From positions 1 to 37,231 of the IMG/VR virus record IMGVR_UViG_3300030329_002105: a stretch of DNA of 37,231 nucleotides, one strand, 5' to 3'. Within the stretch, counting starts at the first letter, position 1; every line of letters begins with the position of its first letter. The position numbers were made by a program, and so were the translations under genes. The notes under the pieces were generated by a model, which was given only the letters and a program-made list of their open reading frames with translations, was not told where the DNA came from and did no database searches. This DNA comes from a virus. Below are positions 647-36,477 of this stretch, in pieces.

Positions 647-3600
647 TTAGTTAAATAGGTCTCTAATCTCTTGTGCCTGTTCTCCCTTTCCTTTTTTTGT
701 TTTAGTTTTAGCATTTTTATTCTTTTTAATGAGTTCTTTTAAACTCATTTCGCCTTGGATTTTTCCTGTTTTCCATTCTTTATGAAATTCTTTCTGCATT
801 TGTTTTAAGGCTTCATTCTTATAATCTCGAATTGCGTTTTGGAGTTTCTCCGTTCTCCTTCCTTTAGGAAACATTGCAGTACCATCCAACCCCTCTTTAT
901 CACCTCTGTTATAACTAGGTTTATCCATGATATGTTTAAGTTGTTGGTGGAGTGTTCTTCCGTTTGGCTTCTTCATGGTTGATAATATTTCCAAAGTTCT
1001 ATCGTATGCAGTTTGTCCCTTTGAATTAGTGTATTTTGTTAGATCAATATTTCTTCCAACAATTTTTGATACACCAGTAAAGTTTGCATTTCCTGGGCCT
1101 TCTGCAAGACGGTTCAACTCAAACCTAACAGGATCGTTTTTAGCTTTACCAACCGTAAAAGGATTTATACTCTTCCAAGGTTGACCGTCTGGTGGCATAA
1201 TCTTTTCACCAAACAAATCCCTTCTAGGTTCAAGCACATCTGAAAATCCTGGTGTTTTCTTCAAAACAGCATCTAAAGTGGAACGAGTCTCTTTCATTGC
1301 TTCGTCTTCATTTATAAAATCAAACATTCCAAAAGAGTTAGGGATATATGAAGCAGCCTTCTGTCTCAAAAGCTTTTCCCCAATAAAACCATCCTCATCT
1401 TCTATAATTTTAAATACATCTAATAGACCTTTTAGATACGATTTACTACCAAGGTTATTTGCCATTGCCATTAATGCTCTTCCAGCAACATCATCATAAA
1501 CACCTTGGTCAACCTTATTTGAAATAGCAACCATATCAGCAGCAATACCGAATGGAATTCCATATGGGTCTAGACGTTGAAAATTTATATACCTTCGATT
1601 GTCTTCTAGTAGTCTTCCATTTTCATCCAATGTGAAATCACCAATGACAAACGAATATGGTCTCCATCCTGTAGCCATTTTAGAATCCCTTAATTCTTTA
1701 TCTCTTGGAGCTGCACCAGTAATTCTACCTTCTGCTGCTAGGTTGTAAGACCAAAACCACACCAAACTACCAGTAGTTACCTTACCTAAAGCCAATGATT
1801 TTTGTGATTCAGTTCCTTCCTTCATAGCCTTCCAAAACCTTGCGGTTAAAACGGCAGCGGGTGAATTATCAACGGCAGTTCTAAATAAGTTTGTTGGTAC
1901 TCTTATAAATGGAAGTATTGTTCCTCGTAATGCTGGGCTTTGATTGACAAAGGATTGTAGGTTTGCACCAAAGTTTCCTTTATTTCCTGATTGCCAAGTT
2001 GGCATATCCTTTAGGTCATCAGTAAAGGTTGACTGTCTTGCACGATCCAAGTGCTGACCTTTTGCACCAGCACCAGTTTTGGCATCAATAGCCTTATCCA
2101 TTGCATCCATCATATACTTATCAACTTCACTTACATGAGTTGTCTTACCATTCTTTAATTTAATTGGAACATTCTTCTTAGTAGATTTCCCTAGCTTAAT
2201 TGCATCACCATAAGCTTGAGCTTTTAGTGAAGCCCTAAAGTTTAATTGCTTGAAGAATTCATCTTCTGCCAATAAAAATCTATTAGGAATTCTAACCAAG
2301 TGTCCAAGAAAGTTTATTCCTTTAACAGCTACCCATTCTATAAAGTCCTCTTCTCGTTTTATTGAAGTATCAAAACCAAAATTGCCAGCATCAATAGCTT
2401 TCAAAGCTTGTCCATCAATTGTTCTTGCTGTGCTATCTAGGATTGCATCTTCCATTTGCATTGCTTTCCATGCCATCTTTAGTGCATCACCCACAACGGT
2501 GGTCAAATAAACCATTTCCCTTCCAGCTTCAAACATAGAATCAAAATCATTATTAGGGTTCAATCCACGCATAGCCCCACCAACCATCTTTTGCATTGGT
2601 AGCCAGAAAGTGTTTAAGCTTGCAGAAGATACATTAACAACGTGTGTCTTAATACCACCTAGAATTCCAGCAATCCAAAACTCGTTATGAACATCAACTA
2701 ATTTATCTATTGTGGTTTTCTTTGTAACACTAAGAACATCATCAATTGTTCCACCTTCTCCAGCGGCCTTAATTCTTGCTGCTAGTTGTTCTATTCCTTT
2801 ATCAGAACCGTTTGTCTCTATGATCTCTGCTATTTCTTCTTTAGTCATAGCTCCTTTGGTTCTGATTCTTCCAGCCTGAGTGGTTCGAGCTGCTGATCTT
2901 CTAACTTGTTTTATGGAATCAAAAAGGTCTGCTTGGATTTCGAGAAGTTTTAACAATTCTACTTTTGCTTCTTTGTCTCCAGTTTTATCAACTAATGTAC
3001 CTACTTTGTAAATTTGATGAGAAATTGATCCCAACATTTCTCTACTGGCTACTAGAGTTGCAGCCATATCTTCTGTGCTAGTTTTTAACATCCGCATCCT
3101 ACCTAGAAGTGCGGTCTTATCCATACCAACTGCTTTAGCTACTGTTTGGGCATGAGTTTCAATATCACCATGACCACCCTGTGCCTTAACAAGTTTTGCC
3201 AATGTATCTATTGTTCCTTTGACTGCTTCGGAATCAAGCATCCTATCCCAATTCATAGCACCACTTAATTCCGCACCTCTAGCCCACTCTCCTTCTTTAG
3301 TGTGGAATGTTGTAAGGTCACCTAGTTTTGCAATGAAGGAAGATACTCCACGATCAGTCATTTGAAAGGTGTCAGTCCTTACCTTAAAAGTTTCTCCTGT
3401 AGCTTGTTCGGTTCTTTTAGGTTTACCAACTTTAGCTGTCAAGGATTGTGGGTTTTTCCCTTTACCACCTTTTATAATTTTTACCTCTTCAAAGAATTCT
3501 CCTAATTCTTTTTCAAGAGACTCCTTTGTATATCCCTTCTGAAACTGTGAAGGCTGTCCTGACTTTGGAACTTCCCAACCATCCTGATACTTTTTCCAAT

Positions 3601-5128
3601 TTTTAGTAGGTTTCATCCCACCAACACCCCTTACCGTTATGAAGCCTTCGCCCCCATCTTTCATTGAATGAGACAATTGAAGCATTGCCGTATCTCTAAG
3701 ACTCTTGGGAAGGGTGTTTAAAACGTAAGGAGAAACTACAGTATCAAAATCTTGCTTACCTAAAGTTTCACCAGTAGAAGGATTATGGTTTGGATCGTAG
3801 TGAACCGTTTGTCCATCTGTAAGATCATCCAATGCTCGAATATCAGGGTTGTCTACTCTCCCTGATCCAGCATGAAGTGTTCTCCCTGTACCTTCATATG
3901 CATCGTCAGGATCAATAATACGCCTCTTTACGGACTCCGAAAGTTCCCTAACAGGAACGGAAACATTTTCTCCCCTTCCTATTGCAGTATTTCCAGAACT
4001 TCCACCAAATGATCTATCCTTTTCAGTTACAGAATCTATTATCTTTCTGGATCGTACATCTTTAATATCAATGCCGGCTGGGGTTTCAAACTTACTTGCA
4101 CTACCCAAGTCTTGTTCAATAATATCACCAGCATTTACTCCATGAATCTCTTTCCAACTCCCTTGTTCTTTTTCGAGATTCTGTACAACACCATTCATAG
4201 TGTCAGCATTTTTATCAAGAAACTTTGCGTATGCCTCTTGCCCTTGTTTACCGTAGACTCGCAAACCTTCTTTAAATAATTTAACACCAGTAAAGATAAC
4301 TTCGATTGCTGCACCAGTTACAAAATCTTCAATTCCAGCCTTAAACTTACCCTCAAGAACACCGTCATTTTTATTTGATTCTAGACTTTCAAAAACGTAG
4401 TCCATGACCGGGCCATGTAATGAAGGGAATGTTTGTAATAAGTCTGCTAGTCTTTCTGCATGGGGGTCTGCTGCTATGAATGTTCCCAATCCACCAGCAG
4501 TAGCTTCAAAGCCAACTACCCTTGCCTTACGCTTTGCAATTTCAAAAAGGTCTTTGACGTTCTTTGCTTTACCTTTCCAATCTTGTACTCCCTTTTTTGT
4601 AAACATCCCTAAGATTCTTCTACCAGAAGCCCAACCCAAACCAAACTGTGTTAAGTCAGCTACTATTCTTCCACCAACTGATTCAGGGTCTTTATCCACA
4701 AAATCTACTGTATCTTCAAATTTATCTGACCAAGTTCGTTCAGTTCTGAAAGACGGCATTGGAATGTTTCTTTGTAAAAAAGAATCCTCGTTGGTTAGTT
4801 GTCCAAGAAGTGTAAAGTTATCTACAATATCTCCCCAACCACCAGCAAACTTACTTAAACCCTTATCAAGACCTCTGGCTGTTTCTTTAAGAACGTACTC
4901 AGCCGTTGCGTTATGGTCATCCCTAGTCAGCTTTTTCTTTGGTTTTTCGTCTAGGGTAATTTTGTTTTCATTTTTTTGTTGTTCAACTTGTGCGGCTTCT
5001 TTAGGGTCAATGGCTTCTTCTTTAACTGCCTTGGATGGTTTCTTTTTTTCCTCTACTACTACCTCTTCTTCAAGAGGATCGTTAAAAGGATCAATGTCGG
5101 CATCCATATTTTCATAAATATTTTCCAT
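647..5128 (-). CDS. internal virion protein D / ejection protein (T7 gp16-like), 1493 aa
   Basis: This giant protein sits between gp15-like and tail fibre genes, where T7 encodes gp16, the inner-core protein ejected to span the cell envelope; T7 gp16 is 1318 aa. The first 70 residues are charged (EEEVVVEEKKK). I do not see the lytic transglycosylase signature of the T7 N-terminus. Instead residues about 375-568 look like a class I methyltransferase fold: HAGSGR (415-424 region), VHYDPNH (442-448), FDTVVSPYVLNTLP (461-474) and MKDGGEGFITVRG (489-501). The C-terminal two thirds is alpha-helical with moderately hydrophobic stretches, such as around WFWSYNLAAEG, that fit a trans-envelope conduit. 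The ATG at 5128 follows a weak GGGAA ribosome site, 20 bases after the gp15-like stop. Family assignment rests on size, order and composition. Confidence 0.88.
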   Translation of the reverse strand: MENIYENMDADIDPFNDPLEEEVVVEEKKKPSKAVKEEAIDPKEAAQVEQQKNENKITLDEKPKKKLTRDDHNATAEYVLKETARGLDKGLSKFAGGWGDIVDNFTLLGQLTNEDSFLQRNIPMPSFRTERTWSDKFEDTVDFVDKDPESVGGRIVADLTQFGLGWASGRRILGMFTKKGVQDWKGKAKNVKDLFEIAKRKARVVGFEATAGGLGTFIAADPHAERLADLLQTFPSLHGPVMDYVFESLESNKNDGVLEGKFKAGIEDFVTGAAIEVIFTGVKLFKEGLRVYGKQGQEAYAKFLDKNADTMNGVVQNLEKEQGSWKEIHGVNAGDIIEQDLGSASKFETPAGIDIKDVRSRKIIDSVTEKDRSFGGSSGNTAIGRGENVSVPVRELSESVKRRIIDPDDAYEGTGRTLHAGSGRVDNPDIRALDDLTDGQTVHYDPNHNPSTGETLGKQDFDTVVSPYVLNTLPKSLRDTAMLQLSHSMKDGGEGFITVRGVGGMKPTKNWKKYQDGWEVPKSGQPSQFQKGYTKESLEKELGEFFEEVKIIKGGKGKNPQSLTAKVGKPKRTEQATGETFKVRTDTFQMTDRGVSSFIAKLGDLTTFHTKEGEWARGAELSGAMNWDRMLDSEAVKGTIDTLAKLVKAQGGHGDIETHAQTVAKAVGMDKTALLGRMRMLKTSTEDMAATLVASREMLGSISHQIYKVGTLVDKTGDKEAKVELLKLLEIQADLFDSIKQVRRSAARTTQAGRIRTKGAMTKEEIAEIIETNGSDKGIEQLAARIKAAGEGGTIDDVLSVTKKTTIDKLVDVHNEFWIAGILGGIKTHVVNVSSASLNTFWLPMQKMVGGAMRGLNPNNDFDSMFEAGREMVYLTTVVGDALKMAWKAMQMEDAILDSTARTIDGQALKAIDAGNFGFDTSIKREEDFIEWVAVKGINFLGHLVRIPNRFLLAEDEFFKQLNFRASLKAQAYGDAIKLGKSTKKNVPIKLKNGKTTHVSEVDKYMMDAMDKAIDAKTGAGAKGQHLDRARQSTFTDDLKDMPTWQSGNKGNFGANLQSFVNQSPALRGTILPFIRVPTNLFRTAVDNSPAAVLTARFWKAMKEGTESQKSLALGKVTTGSLVWFWSYNLAAEGRITGAAPRDKELRDSKMATGWRPYSFVIGDFTLDENGRLLEDNRRYINFQRLDPYGIPFGIAADMVAISNKVDQGVYDDVAGRALMAMANNLGSKSYLKGLLDVFKIIEDEDGFIGEKLLRQKAASYIPNSFGMFDFINEDEAMKETRSTLDAVLKKTPGFSDVLEPRRDLFGEKIMPPDGQPWKSINPFTVGKAKNDPVRFELNRLAEGPGNANFTGVSKIVGRNIDLTKYTNSKGQTAYDRTLEILSTMKKPNGRTLHQQLKHIMDKPSYNRGDKEGLDGTAMFPKGRRTEKLQNAIRDYKNEALKQMQKEFHKEWKTGKIQGEMSLKELIKKNKNAKTKTKKGKGEQAQEIRDLFN
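3425..4006 (-). other. methyltransferase-like domain within the gp16-like protein
   Basis: Residues about 375-568 of the ejection protein show, in order, a glycine-rich loop (LHAGSGRVDNPDI), an acidic strand end (VHYDPNH), an NPPY-position strand (FDTVVSPYVLNTLP) and a late strand with a following helix (GGEGFITVRG, then YTKESLEKELGEFFEEVKI). This is the motif I-II-IV-V sequence of SAM-dependent methyltransferases. It resembles the family annotated as phosphorothioation-associated or type-11 methyltransferases, which also have a VLN motif. The match is by eye. Whether the domain binds SAM or has become structural cannot be told from the sequence. Confidence 0.6.
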
Positions 5129-28611: not shown

Positions 28612-29634
28612 TTAGTTGGCCTTTCTTAAAATAGTTAATTCTGGCTTAGACTCTAGAACCTTGACCGCATCCATAAGGTTGGATGGTGCTAGGTGAGCAT
28701 AGCGGAGAGTGATCTGGATGGATTTGTGTCCCATCCATTGTTGTACTACTTTGAGACCGATCCCTCGTTGGACTAAACGAGAAGCACAAGTGTGGCGAAG
28801 GCAATGCGGTACAAACTGGCTATCGTCTGCCAACCCCATGATGGTCTTGAGTCGAGCCCAAGGTGTTCTCATCCAATCTTTGGAGAACATGAAGGGTTTC
28901 AACTCACCATGCATCCTTCTAGATAAAATTGAGGCCACTCTCTTGGTCATTGGTACTGATCTGGAATCATCATTCTTGGTGTCCCAAACCGTGACCATGT
29001 TGGTTTCAAAATCAATGTCCCTGAAGGACAGGGATCGTAATTCACCAACCCTGAAACCAGTATCAATGAGGCAGACAACCGCATCATAGAAATCATCCTG
29101 ACTCATTTGAGAAATAATCTGAAGCATCCTTGCTTCTTCCTCATAGGTCACCCATCGGATTCGGCCTTTTCCTTCCTTCTTTCGAGGCATGAAAGGCTTT
29201 GCCTTGAGGTGACCTCGCTGTACTGCAACTGTCAACATCTTGGACAATGAAGCCAGTTTGCGGTTGATGGTTGCATCGGACTTCTTTGCATCTTTGAGGA
29301 AGTCAATGTAGTCATCAATCGCATCGGTGTCGATGGTGTCTAAAGGTCTCTTCTCACCAAAAAACTTAATAGCTTCTTTGGCATTACGGATGCTTGACAC
29401 TTCGGCTTTTGAACCATCCCAAACTGATTCGCTAGTTCTTCTAAATGCATCTTCCAGAGTCCATGTGGATTTAACTGCCGGCCTGGATGATGCACCGTAG
29501 CGAAGCTCTTCAAACTTTTCCTTTTCCAAGAGTTTAGCTTCCTCTTCGGAGTGGACAGTCTGAACAAATCTAGGTTGACCCTTAACCGTGACATCGACTT
29601 GAAATTTACCATTAGGTTTTAATCGAATTGCCAC
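28612..29634 (-). CDS. int: tyrosine-type site-specific integrase, 340 aa
   Basis: Catalyses phage integration and, with help, excision. Catalytic residues: R195 (DTGFRVGELRSLSF), K220 (WDTKNDDSR), H277 and R280 (PHCLRHTCASRL), H303 (WMGHKSIQIT) and Y312 (LRYAHLAP). The SAM-like core-binding domain spans about 55-145; the N-terminal 50 residues form a small arm-binding type domain (KPNGKFQVDVTVKGQPRFVQTV). It starts at GTG 29634, one base overlapping the TAG of the MarR-like gene, with AGGAGA upstream. The tRNA-Leu just after the stop is its likely target. All key residues are present, so it is probably active. Confidence 0.96.
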   Translation of the reverse strand: MAIRLKPNGKFQVDVTVKGQPRFVQTVHSEEEAKLLEKEKFEELRYGASSRPAVKSTWTLEDAFRRTSESVWDGSKAEVSSIRNAKEAIKFFGEKRPLDTIDTDAIDDYIDFLKDAKKSDATINRKLASLSKMLTVAVQRGHLKAKPFMPRKKEGKGRIRWVTYEEEARMLQIISQMSQDDFYDAVVCLIDTGFRVGELRSLSFRDIDFETNMVTVWDTKNDDSRSVPMTKRVASILSRRMHGELKPFMFSKDWMRTPWARLKTIMGLADDSQFVPHCLRHTCASRLVQRGIGLKVVQQWMGHKSIQITLRYAHLAPSNLMDAVKVLESKPELTILRKAN

Positions 29635-31287: not shown

Positions 31288-32541
31288 CTATATTGCCTCT
31301 TCTAATGAATCAGCTAAACACAGATTATACTCTTCAATATCTAATTCTTGTTGCTTCTTAACGTTCCTAAGTATCCAAACAAATACATTAATAGTAAAAC
31401 CATTCCCAAGCATTTTATAACGCTGGCTATTTGAAATAGGTTTCATTACTCCGTGTATATCTTGCCCATAGGAAGTGTATTTATCAGGCACAGTTTGAGA
31501 CCTTTCGCACTCTAAAACGGTTATATACCGCAACCCTTTTTTGTCAGGTATGCCAAAAAACCTTTGAGAAGAGCAACCTTTAAAATGTGAGGCCTCTATC
31601 ATTTGCACCTTTTCCCTATCACCCTGAATTCTTAAAGATTTATTTTTAAGCTTTCCGTGTCGCTCTATCCATTGAAGCATTTTTTCAGAATAGTAATAAT
31701 TATCAGGAGCATTTTCTTCCTTTATATCCATAAAGGTTAAACCCATAGAAGTATAATTATCAGGAATAGTTTGAAGCCTTTCGCACTCTAAAGGTGAAAG
31801 TTTTCGCCAATTGTTAGGCTCAATAAATACTTTGGGTTCTCTGTGTCCACCTTGCATGGTAGTTAAACACGAAGCCTTTCCAGTATCCTTATAAACTCTT
31901 TTTATAGATTCATTACCCTTTATATTTGCATTGCCTATATGGTGGCAGTCGGAGTTAAAAGTTTTTTCTTCAAACTTCAATTCCAATTGTCCACCTTTAG
32001 TTTTTGGATTCTCTTCTAAAATATCTTTTAGAACCGTGTCGCTGGTTTTATAAGAATCGATTTCTATATTAGACCAGTAAAGCCTTTGCCTATTCTGTGC
32101 TGAAAAATCCTTACTATTAATCAACACAGGTTCAACACCTAATTTTTCAGAAATGATATTTTCCCATTTCTTTTTCATTTTTACATTTTCTAAAATGAAT
32201 TTTATATTAGGGTTCTTTTTTCTTAGCAATTCTAAAACCTCAAAGGTTTTATAGAATAATCCAGACCTTGAACCTTCTAGGCCTTTTCCATTTGCTTTAC
32301 TAAAAGATAAATCTTGACACGGAAAACCAGCACTTAAAATATCTATCTTAGGTAATAAGAAAAAAGGGATTTTAGGATTATTGATATCACCTAATTCTAT
32401 AGTGGAAGGAAAGTTTAACCGTGTAACACTTGAAGCGTATTTATCAATCTCACACGAAAAATAATTATCATACTTTATACCAGCCTTTACCAATGCTAAT
32501 TGAAAACCAGAGCATCCATCAAATAAAGATAAAACATTCAT
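31288..32541 (-). CDS. C5-cytosine-specific DNA methyltransferase, 417 aa
   Basis: Methylates carbon 5 of cytosine in DNA. Motifs: I SLFDGCSGFQLAL (5-17), IV GFPCQDLSFS (72-81; catalytic C75), VI LENV (117-120), VIII QNRQRLYWSNI (149-159), IX RKLSPLECERLQTIPDNYT (246-264) and X SQRYKMLGNGFTINV (372-386). Unusually, a second motif IX, YITVLECERSQTVPDKYT (339-356), stands between IX and X, giving a 110-residue insertion. All catalytic motifs are intact. No cognate restriction enzyme is seen, so it is an orphan enzyme, probably protecting phage DNA. The target is unreadable. The ATG at 32541 has AAAGGAA upstream. It belongs to the accessory module between the genome ends and the integrase operon. 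Confidence 0.93.
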   Translation of the reverse strand: MNVLSLFDGCSGFQLALVKAGIKYDNYFSCEIDKYASSVTRLNFPSTIELGDINNPKIPFFLLPKIDILSAGFPCQDLSFSKANGKGLEGSRSGLFYKTFEVLELLRKKNPNIKFILENVKMKKKWENIISEKLGVEPVLINSKDFSAQNRQRLYWSNIEIDSYKTSDTVLKDILEENPKTKGGQLELKFEEKTFNSDCHHIGNANIKGNESIKRVYKDTGKASCLTTMQGGHREPKVFIEPNNWRKLSPLECERLQTIPDNYTSMGLTFMDIKEENAPDNYYYSEKMLQWIERHGKLKNKSLRIQGDREKVQMIEASHFKGCSSQRFFGIPDKKGLRYITVLECERSQTVPDKYTSYGQDIHGVMKPISNSQRYKMLGNGFTINVFVWILRNVKKQQELDIEEYNLCLADSLEEAI

Positions 32542-34335: not shown

Positions 34336-34611
34336 TTAAAGTTTTTTAGTAACGATCTCAAATTCTTCATTATTGCCATGAACATTCTGTATAACCATCT
34401 TATTTATAATTCTTCCACTAACGAAGTTCTTACCAGTTTTATTACTAGAAGATATTTCGGAGTCTATCCATTCCCCTTCTTCTAAATCAAAGTGTCCAAT
34501 AAACGGACATTGTGGACAATCGCCGGCAATAAAATAGTTCTCGAAGATTTTATCCACATAGGTATCTAATACTTCTGTACAAGTAGGACATTCATTTAAA
34601 CTTGCATCCAT
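34336..34611 (-). CDS. zinc-ribbon-like hypothetical protein, 91 aa
   Basis: Start taken at ATG 34611, inside the end of the terminase gene (16-base overlap); the longer frame upstream is terminase in another frame. Two CXXC pairs, ECPTC and GDCPQC, about 26 residues apart, form a likely zinc ribbon (MDASLNECPTCTEVLDTYVD start). The second half is acidic then beta-rich (HFDLEEGEWIDSE). The upstream ribosome site is poor, so it probably depends on terminase translation. T7 gene 18.5/19 neighbours do not include such a protein. Unknown function; packaging or nucleic-acid binding is possible. Confidence 0.7.
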   Translation of the reverse strand: MDASLNECPTCTEVLDTYVDKIFENYFIAGDCPQCPFIGHFDLEEGEWIDSEISSSNKTGKNFVSGRIINKMVIQNVHGNNEEFEIVTKKL

Positions 34612-36278
34612 TTTGAGTCGCTTTCTGAAGAGTATCCAACACATCCTTCCATGAATTTGTCCAGTTCCTCTTTTAGCAATTCTTCTTTTCGACTGTTTAC
34701 TTGTCTGTCTACGTCTGCTGCCATTTGTTCCACCCAATAGTTAACTGCAATTGACAACACATCTAACCTATCATCGTGTTTTAATGCTCCCTTCAAAGAG
34801 GATATTCTTGTCATTTGATAGATGAGTTGATATTGAAGTGCTTTTTCAGGTGGGTGGTGTTGTGTAGACTTAAAATCTCTCTCTATAACCTTCTTATCAA
34901 TAATCAATTTGTGATTATTCATAACTGGTTCTAGGGTGTCTATAATTCTTCGTTCTTTCTGGATATGGTGTCGTACTTCCTCAATAGTTACAGGGTAAAT
35001 TTTAGTTACTATAGGAGTTAACAACTGAGTAAACATACCGTCACCGAAGTTTGACTCAACTACTATCATGTTAACTTTGCTTCTCTTCGCTATAACTGCT
35101 AGTGCCTTTAAGGTCTCATCAGCATAACCACCTTTTGTACCACCTAAATCCGTAACAAATAGTTGTCCATTTAACATCTTCACTACGGCATAAGCAGTTT
35201 CATCTTGTCCTCTGCCTGAAGGATCAATTGCTAGAACCGATCCTTGATAATCTATCCAATCCCCTTGAGTCCTCATCGGTCTATAGAAGTTGTCACCGTT
35301 TAAGGCTACACAGGGAAGATCATCAATAATTAATTCGGGTGCTGATGCCCAAACTACTTTTTCAGGGGCAGATTCAGGGTTGGTGTTCATAATTACCAGA
35401 TCACTTACTTTGAGTGGGTAACGGTCTTCATCACTTAGTCGAGTGTCTAGCATGAATTGGAGAGCAAAGCCTGTCCTTCCGTAACTGGCTTCCCTTTCCT
35501 GTAGGTCTAATTCATCGAATCTTTGCGGATCAGTAGGTTGCCCTATTAAGGTAGAATCCTTTTCCAGTTTGTTTCCAATGTATGGTGCAAGGTTATCTCC
35601 ATATATAGAGGCATAGTCTTTTGAGGGGTATCTTGCCGGGTAGATTCTAGTCGAATAACCACGAGGGGCTAGTACGTTGTACAGAGATTGTTCGCATTGT
35701 GGTGTCCCAAGGAAGATAATTCTTCCCCCAGGTTTTACAATTGCATCAAACTCTTTAACAACTTCTCCCATTTTGTCTCTCATAACTTGTGTTTGAGAGT
35801 TATTAGGTACTTCGACATCATCTCCTATTATTACATCGCCTCGACTTCCTGTTAGCTGTCCAAGTATTCCACCAGATTTAACTGAAGGTTGGTGGCTTGC
35901 TTTAGCTGGTGCTACATCAAAACTGATCTTTGATTTACGTTGGTCTTCTCTAGGGACTAGGTGCTTTAGTATTTCCATCTCTGTAATGATACGGAGAGTA
36001 AACGTACTAAAATCATCTGCCCTATTTTTTGATGCAGACACTACCATAATATTTAATTGAGGATCACAGTAGAGTAACCAACATACAAATGCAGAGGTGA
36101 TCCATGATTTGCCTACCCCTCGAAAAGCTTCAAGTACCATTCTCTTATCCCCATGTTGGAGATAGTAGGCTATGTCATATTGTATGGGTGTTGGTTCAGG
36201 TAGTCGGAGATGTTTCCAAACCACATAAAGAAATATTCGGAAGTCTTCTTTTAGTGGCTCATTAGTTGTGGCGTTCAT
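34596..36278 (-). CDS. terminase large subunit (T7 gp19-like), 560 aa
   Basis: ATP-driven DNA packaging motor and end nuclease. Walker A: VLEAFRGVGKSWITSAF (about residues 50-66). LNIMVVSASKNRADDF follows, then DVIIGDDVEVPNNSQ, and RIIFLGTPQCEQSLYNVL as the coupling motif. The RNase H-like nuclease starts at VLAIDPSGRGQDETAYAVVK. Length is near T7 gp19 (586 aa). ATG 36278 is preferred over TTG 36284; both overlap the end of the small subunit gene. The C-terminus, GCVGYSSESDSKWMQV, could be the portal-binding tail. Secure identification. Confidence 0.96.
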   Translation of the reverse strand: MNATTNEPLKEDFRIFLYVVWKHLRLPEPTPIQYDIAYYLQHGDKRMVLEAFRGVGKSWITSAFVCWLLYCDPQLNIMVVSASKNRADDFSTFTLRIITEMEILKHLVPREDQRKSKISFDVAPAKASHQPSVKSGGILGQLTGSRGDVIIGDDVEVPNNSQTQVMRDKMGEVVKEFDAIVKPGGRIIFLGTPQCEQSLYNVLAPRGYSTRIYPARYPSKDYASIYGDNLAPYIGNKLEKDSTLIGQPTDPQRFDELDLQEREASYGRTGFALQFMLDTRLSDEDRYPLKVSDLVIMNTNPESAPEKVVWASAPELIIDDLPCVALNGDNFYRPMRTQGDWIDYQGSVLAIDPSGRGQDETAYAVVKMLNGQLFVTDLGGTKGGYADETLKALAVIAKRSKVNMIVVESNFGDGMFTQLLTPIVTKIYPVTIEEVRHHIQKERRIIDTLEPVMNNHKLIIDKKVIERDFKSTQHHPPEKALQYQLIYQMTRISSLKGALKHDDRLDVLSIAVNYWVEQMAADVDRQVNSRKEELLKEELDKFMEGCVGYSSESDSKWMQV

Positions 36279-36477
36279 CCTCAAACTTAGGGAGTGAGGA
36301 TAACAAGTTTGCTATCGGAGAGTCTTGGATAAACTCTGCTTCAATTCCATTGTCTTTTAAAAATTTAACGGCTACGCTAAGTTCACTTGCAGTTGCTTCT
36401 CCTGTTTTAATTTTTCGGAGTAATTCATTTGCTAGTGCCTCGTGCAGCTCACCTAATGTTTCTTCTTTCGCACTCAT
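36262..36477 (-). CDS. terminase small subunit (T7 gp18-like), 71 aa
   Basis: A helical protein directly before the large subunit, as gp18 in T7 (89 aa). Conserved features are ELHEALANELLRKIKTGEATASELSVAVKFLKDNGIEA, typical of the T7-group DNA maturase A family. It selects concatemeric phage DNA for packaging. The ATG overlaps the upstream stop by four bases (ATGA), and its end overlaps the large subunit start, so three genes are coupled. Confidence 0.9.
   Translation of the reverse strand: MSAKEETLGELHEALANELLRKIKTGEATASELSVAVKFLKDNGIEAEFIQDSPIANLLSSLPKFEDERHN

Follow-up and report, generated by a model that had tools for sequence, protein, structure and literature searches.

The gp16-type ejection protein of a T7-like phage probably carries, as cargo captured in its variable slot, a class I methyltransferase that would be delivered to the host and act early, in the manner of a polyvalent effector. 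According to the mechanism that we propose, a class I SAM-dependent methyltransferase would have been captured into the gp16 slot between two conserved blocks, and the gp16-like protein would be part of the virion core and, by analogy with T7 gp16, would enter the cell threaded together with the DNA. Once there, the domain would refold in the cytoplasm, which supplies SAM, and would methylate a host or phage target before the phage genes are expressed. A protein, an RNA or a small molecule would be a more likely target than DNA, and the domain would work like the effector of a polyvalent protein.

The carrier is encoded on the minus strand of the window, that is, of the whole stretch of 37,231 nucleotides that was analysed (IMG/VR record IMGVR_UViG_3300030329_002105). 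Its main parts are the following:

647 to 5128, minus strand: gp16-like internal virion (ejection) protein of 1493 aa, assigned from phrog_6651, identity to relatives and gene order
4253 to 4693, minus strand: N-terminal conserved gp16-family block, residues ~146-292, the upstream edge of the slot (profile anchor)
2705 to 4252, minus strand: variable slot of 517 aa, delimited by comparing gp16 relatives between profile anchors
650 to 2704, minus strand: C-terminal conserved gp16-family core, from residue ~809 (alignment and profile anchor)

Among the PHROGs, the ORF matches phrog_6651, an internal virion protein, with an E value of 3.4e-32, and it shares 27-30% identity with the pelagiphage 'internal virion protein D'. 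The surrounding genes follow the T7 order, the ORF adjoining gp14/gp15-like genes, and both the family core and the gene position place it within the T7 gp16 type. Gene order, N-terminal block and C-terminal core are common to T7 gp16, phrog_6651, the pelagiphage protein D and the window protein; the latter differs from its T7 gp16-type relatives in a slot that is ~200 aa longer and holds the methyltransferase, and in the lack of a transglycosylase by Pfam. Indeed, no Pfam match to the N-terminal transglycosylase domain was found in the gp16-like protein, but as this domain is phage-specific (PMC8954989), its absence does not exclude gp16 membership. It has been described that the C-terminal part of T7 gp16 is located in the host cytoplasm (PMC8954989). 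On the strength of gene order and homology, the gp16-like protein is predicted to be a virion component that is ejected into the host, and the position of the domain together with the family of its carrier makes it plausible that the domain is ejected and acts early.

An earlier note, made from the letters alone, had read a plausible SAM-binding motif order in residues 375-568 of this gp16-like protein and had named a Rossmann topology as a feature to look for. The motif order was read correctly: these residues correspond exactly to positions 3425-4006 of the minus-strand ORF at 647-5128, all the named motifs are present (residues 380-534), and profile and fold agree with it. The domain and its motifs are distributed as follows:

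3434 to 3997, minus strand: class I SAM-dependent methyltransferase-like domain, residues ~378-565, from the held-out profile, tblastn and fold matches
Residues 380-385 of the minus-strand ORF: motif NTAIGR
3857 to 3877, minus strand: motif I, LHAGSGR, residues 418-424, the glycine loop, with H for the usual D
3785 to 3799, minus strand: YDPNH, residues 444-448, end of strand 2, position of the acidic residue
3707 to 3748, minus strand: FDTVVSPYVLNTLP, residues 461-474, motif IV region, holding the invariant N471
3626 to 3655, minus strand: GGEGFITVRG, residues 492-501, strand 5 with R500
3527 to 3544, minus strand: FQKGYT, residues 529-534, family motif with the invariant Q530

Taken as a single sequence, the domain stretch had no convincing match in Pfam, PHROGs or the PDB, so a simple scan could not settle the methyltransferase call. 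A weak methyltransferase match was obtained in NCBIfam (E 0.075), and tblastn retrieved a phage 'methyltransferase' (E 6e-5) and a Vibrio plasmid 'class I SAM-dependent methyltransferase' (E 8e-6). When phage, Vibrio and further relatives are aligned with the window domain, a common motif set emerges. A held-out profile built from 11 relatives, with the window left out and a search space of Z=100,000, matches window residues 414-554 with 72.5 bits (E 1.7e-19), while the best score among 5000 shuffles of the stretch was 9.4 bits, which establishes homology to methyltransferases beyond chance. Profiles made from a single branch also find the window, either with the Vibrio relatives only (E 2.2e-13) or with the phage relatives only (E 2.7e-7). 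Designed TIM barrels among the top PDB profile matches were rejected as chance, since short repeated helices were aligned. The closest relatives of the domain are stand-alone methyltransferases of Vibrio plasmids (~33-36% identity), which share with it the N-terminal TAI/TSI and SxP motifs and NTLP; unlike the window domain, they are separate genes of ~190-210 aa outside any virion protein. In the tree the window lies beside these plasmid copies, with long branches and no strong support.

The predicted structure points in the same direction. Two AlphaFold runs, one of 246 residues with a 21-sequence alignment and another of 201 residues with a 33-sequence alignment, gave a mean pLDDT of 68 and 73 and a pTM of 0.71 and 0.72, respectively. 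Foldseek comparison of both models with the PDB recovered the Rossmann-type methyltransferase fold, the best 50 matches all being enzymes of the class I methyltransferase fold, with moderate TM-scores (~0.3-0.5). The solved structures matched are small-molecule, tRNA or uncharacterised methyltransferases and mostly not DNA ones. Model confidence is lowest at strands 1-2 and the glycine loop, the N-terminal half having a pLDDT of roughly 40-75. As judged by homology and model together, the domain is of the class I SAM-dependent methyltransferase type.

Conservation was assessed in 32 aligned relatives, a set dominated by one phage branch. The residues invariant in all of them (T381, G423, N471, R478, G493, Q530 and L538) are kept in the window, and R500 is the same residue in 31 of the 32. 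In the SAM loop the GxG is kept and the acidic residue is replaced by H419, a position occupied by D in 30 of the 32 relatives and by N in the closest (Vibrio) ones. Given H419 in motif I and the low-confidence model at this loop, methyltransferase activity of the domain is no firmer than plausible. The domain might instead be a degenerate relic that has lost its methylating activity and retains no more than a structural or binding role, as the H in place of D, the long branch of the window in the tree and the departures from well-conserved columns could indicate (60 columns reach 90% conservation or more in this mostly phage-branch set, and of these the window keeps 25 and departs in 35). Such decay is nevertheless unlikely, because no residue invariant across the relatives has been lost, the Vibrio relatives likewise lack the D at motif I, and the reading frame of the domain is intact, with a third-position G+C resembling that of the rest of the gene.

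A second alternative, also raised in the earlier note, is that the domain, once ejected, shields the incoming phage DNA from restriction by methylating it, a role that P1 DarB is thought to play. DarB offers a precedent as a virion-borne methyltransferase that protects DNA (PMC5512222), and in both cases the methyltransferase lies within a virion protein, in the window by homology. However, DarB is an adenine methyltransferase with an NPP(Y/F) motif fused to a helicase (PMC5512222), and the window protein has neither: the [DNS]PP[YFW] catalytic motif of amino DNA methyltransferases is absent from the whole gp16-like protein, as is the PCQ motif of cytosine-C5 DNA methyltransferases, and no helicase that could act as a DarB-type partner was detected in it by Pfam. 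The profile and fold matches are, in addition, mostly to methyltransferases other than DNA ones. TIGR04096 (dnd_rel_methyl), a putative methyltransferase model named for its association with DNA phosphorothioation, recognizes 10 of the 12 family members aligned (best E 1.4e-38), which would favor a link to DNA, but it does not detect the domain of the window at E <= 10, and membership of the latter was rejected. Likewise, a PAPS-reductase gene, the link to phosphorothioation, is present on two plasmids with stand-alone methyltransferase copies but was not found in the phage carriers examined. Even though the phage has a separate C5 DNA methylase gene, DNA modification or anti-restriction by the ejected domain gains no support from these comparisons, and we regard it as distinctly unlikely.

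The preferred reading, that of captured and delivered cargo, draws on the comparison of gp16 relatives. The alignment of pelagiphage Gjalp with the window protein is restricted to 140-309 and 681-1492, and in the closest gp16 relative (L017) the methyltransferase part is missing. Between the two profile anchors, the slot of 517 aa in the window compares with ~250-380 aa in most relatives and 1732 aa in the largest. On these alignments, the methyltransferase domain has been inserted between the two blocks conserved in gp16. Of the 108 distinct gp16-like ORFs, only three kinds have a detectable methyltransferase (the window with a near-identical copy, L026 and L189), and in L026 and L189 it sits in the same slot as in the window. 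That of L026 has an independent Pfam match to Methyltransf_23 (E 5e-7), while that of L189 is weaker (profile E 1.5e-9, Pfam 0.0028). T7-type TerL genes are found downstream of gp16 in both, with a fibre gene as well in L026.

Other contents of the slot can be listed alongside. HExxH occurs within it in L026, L189, L052, L034, L031 and L215, as a motif count only, and suggests peptidase-like cargo; ART-PolyVal or DUF3990 matches in L072, L076, L082 and L085 are weak and fall below curated cut-offs. Hence, the reading of the gp16 slot as an apparent cargo bay, holding early effectors of the 'polyvalent' kind, is firm on the methyltransferases and suggestive on the rest. More tentatively, T7-type gp16 proteins of environmental, largely marine phages may quite possibly serve as delivery vehicles in general, with different effector enzymes exchanged in the central slot (non-DarB methyltransferases, HExxH peptidase-like and ADP-ribosyltransferase-like), so that even small T7-like phages would deliver enzymes before expressing their genes.

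The methyltransferase module is also found beyond gp16. A scan of viral sequences yielded at least 284 loci with it, and among the 80 retained from these, most of the complete ORFs exceed 370 aa. It lies inside a ~3100-aa phage protein with ART-PolyVal and DUF7178 matches, is fused with a cell-wall hydrolase (Hydrolase_2) and DUF7178 in CRP-3 and with a lysozyme in HTVC104P, and is located in the annotated tape measure of Myrna. Plasmids and phage MJing1 have the module as a stand-alone gene, and the enzyme can thus be of use without ejection; action in the producing cell (e.g., late in infection, on virion proteins or host factors), with an incidental location in the ejection protein, would fit these copies but is very unlikely, as the recurrent fusion to cell-wall hydrolase proteins or a tape measure and the repeated use of the same gp16 slot favor delivery. 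In the stand-alone plasmid copies L015 and L008, genes of the PAPS-reductase family lie beside the module or a few kb away. DUF7178 and the module share a polypeptide in three different contexts (L002, L011 and L189); this partner is absent from the window, and no mention of it was found in the part of the literature covered.

Polyvalent proteins are a published concept for phages and conjugative elements (Iyer et al. 2017, PMC5512222). They resemble the window protein in being large, probably virion-associated proteins that carry enzyme cargo, and relatives combine methyltransferase, ADP-ribosyltransferase-like, HExxH and DUF7178 parts, L026 and L189 having methyltransferase and HExxH in one protein and L189 also DUF7178. 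On the other hand, a single enzyme domain was seen in the window gp16-like protein, whereas a polyvalent protein is expected to have at least two unrelated effector domains. The carrier also differs, being of the T7 gp16 type, which is not mentioned in the main text of PMC5512222, and so does the enzyme, which is not of the EcoKI/TaqI-like adenine type to which the methyltransferases of that work, such as DarB, mostly belong. In the part of the literature covered, we found no T7-type gp16 described as carrying a methyltransferase. Methyltransferases delivered with phage DNA have so far been known mainly as DarB-like DNA methylases, and a different family in a T7-type ejection machine, in a slot where other phages have other enzyme-like cargo, suggests that the delivery of pre-made effectors extends to small podoviruses. 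The well-studied gp16 now offers a defined place for probing effector delivery.

As judged from gene content, the 37-kb record belongs to a T7-like phage, with a T7-type RNA polymerase, primase-helicase, family A DNA polymerase, portal, tube and nozzle, as well as gp13- and gp14-like proteins, fibre and terminase. The phage is probably of marine origin, since its gp16 relatives are those of pelagiphages, roseophages and cyanophages. A separate C5-cytosine DNA methylase gene (31291-32541, minus strand; PF00145, E 5.4e-41) could protect progeny DNA, and a tyrosine integrase gene (28615-29634, minus strand; PF00589, E 4.5e-28), present in this T7-like phage, suggests a temperate or formerly temperate life cycle. 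The genes at the record ends (2-637 and 34596-36284, both on the minus strand) are those of tail fibre and terminase; because the break of the record falls within the tail fibre gene and the terminase lies close to its end, the genome is probably permuted or incomplete. Over 10,006 matching bases, 3 differences separate a second contig (L003, IMGVR_UViG_3300020477_000200) from the window, and each of them changes an amino acid of the gp16 core (codons 1091, 1101 and 1103).
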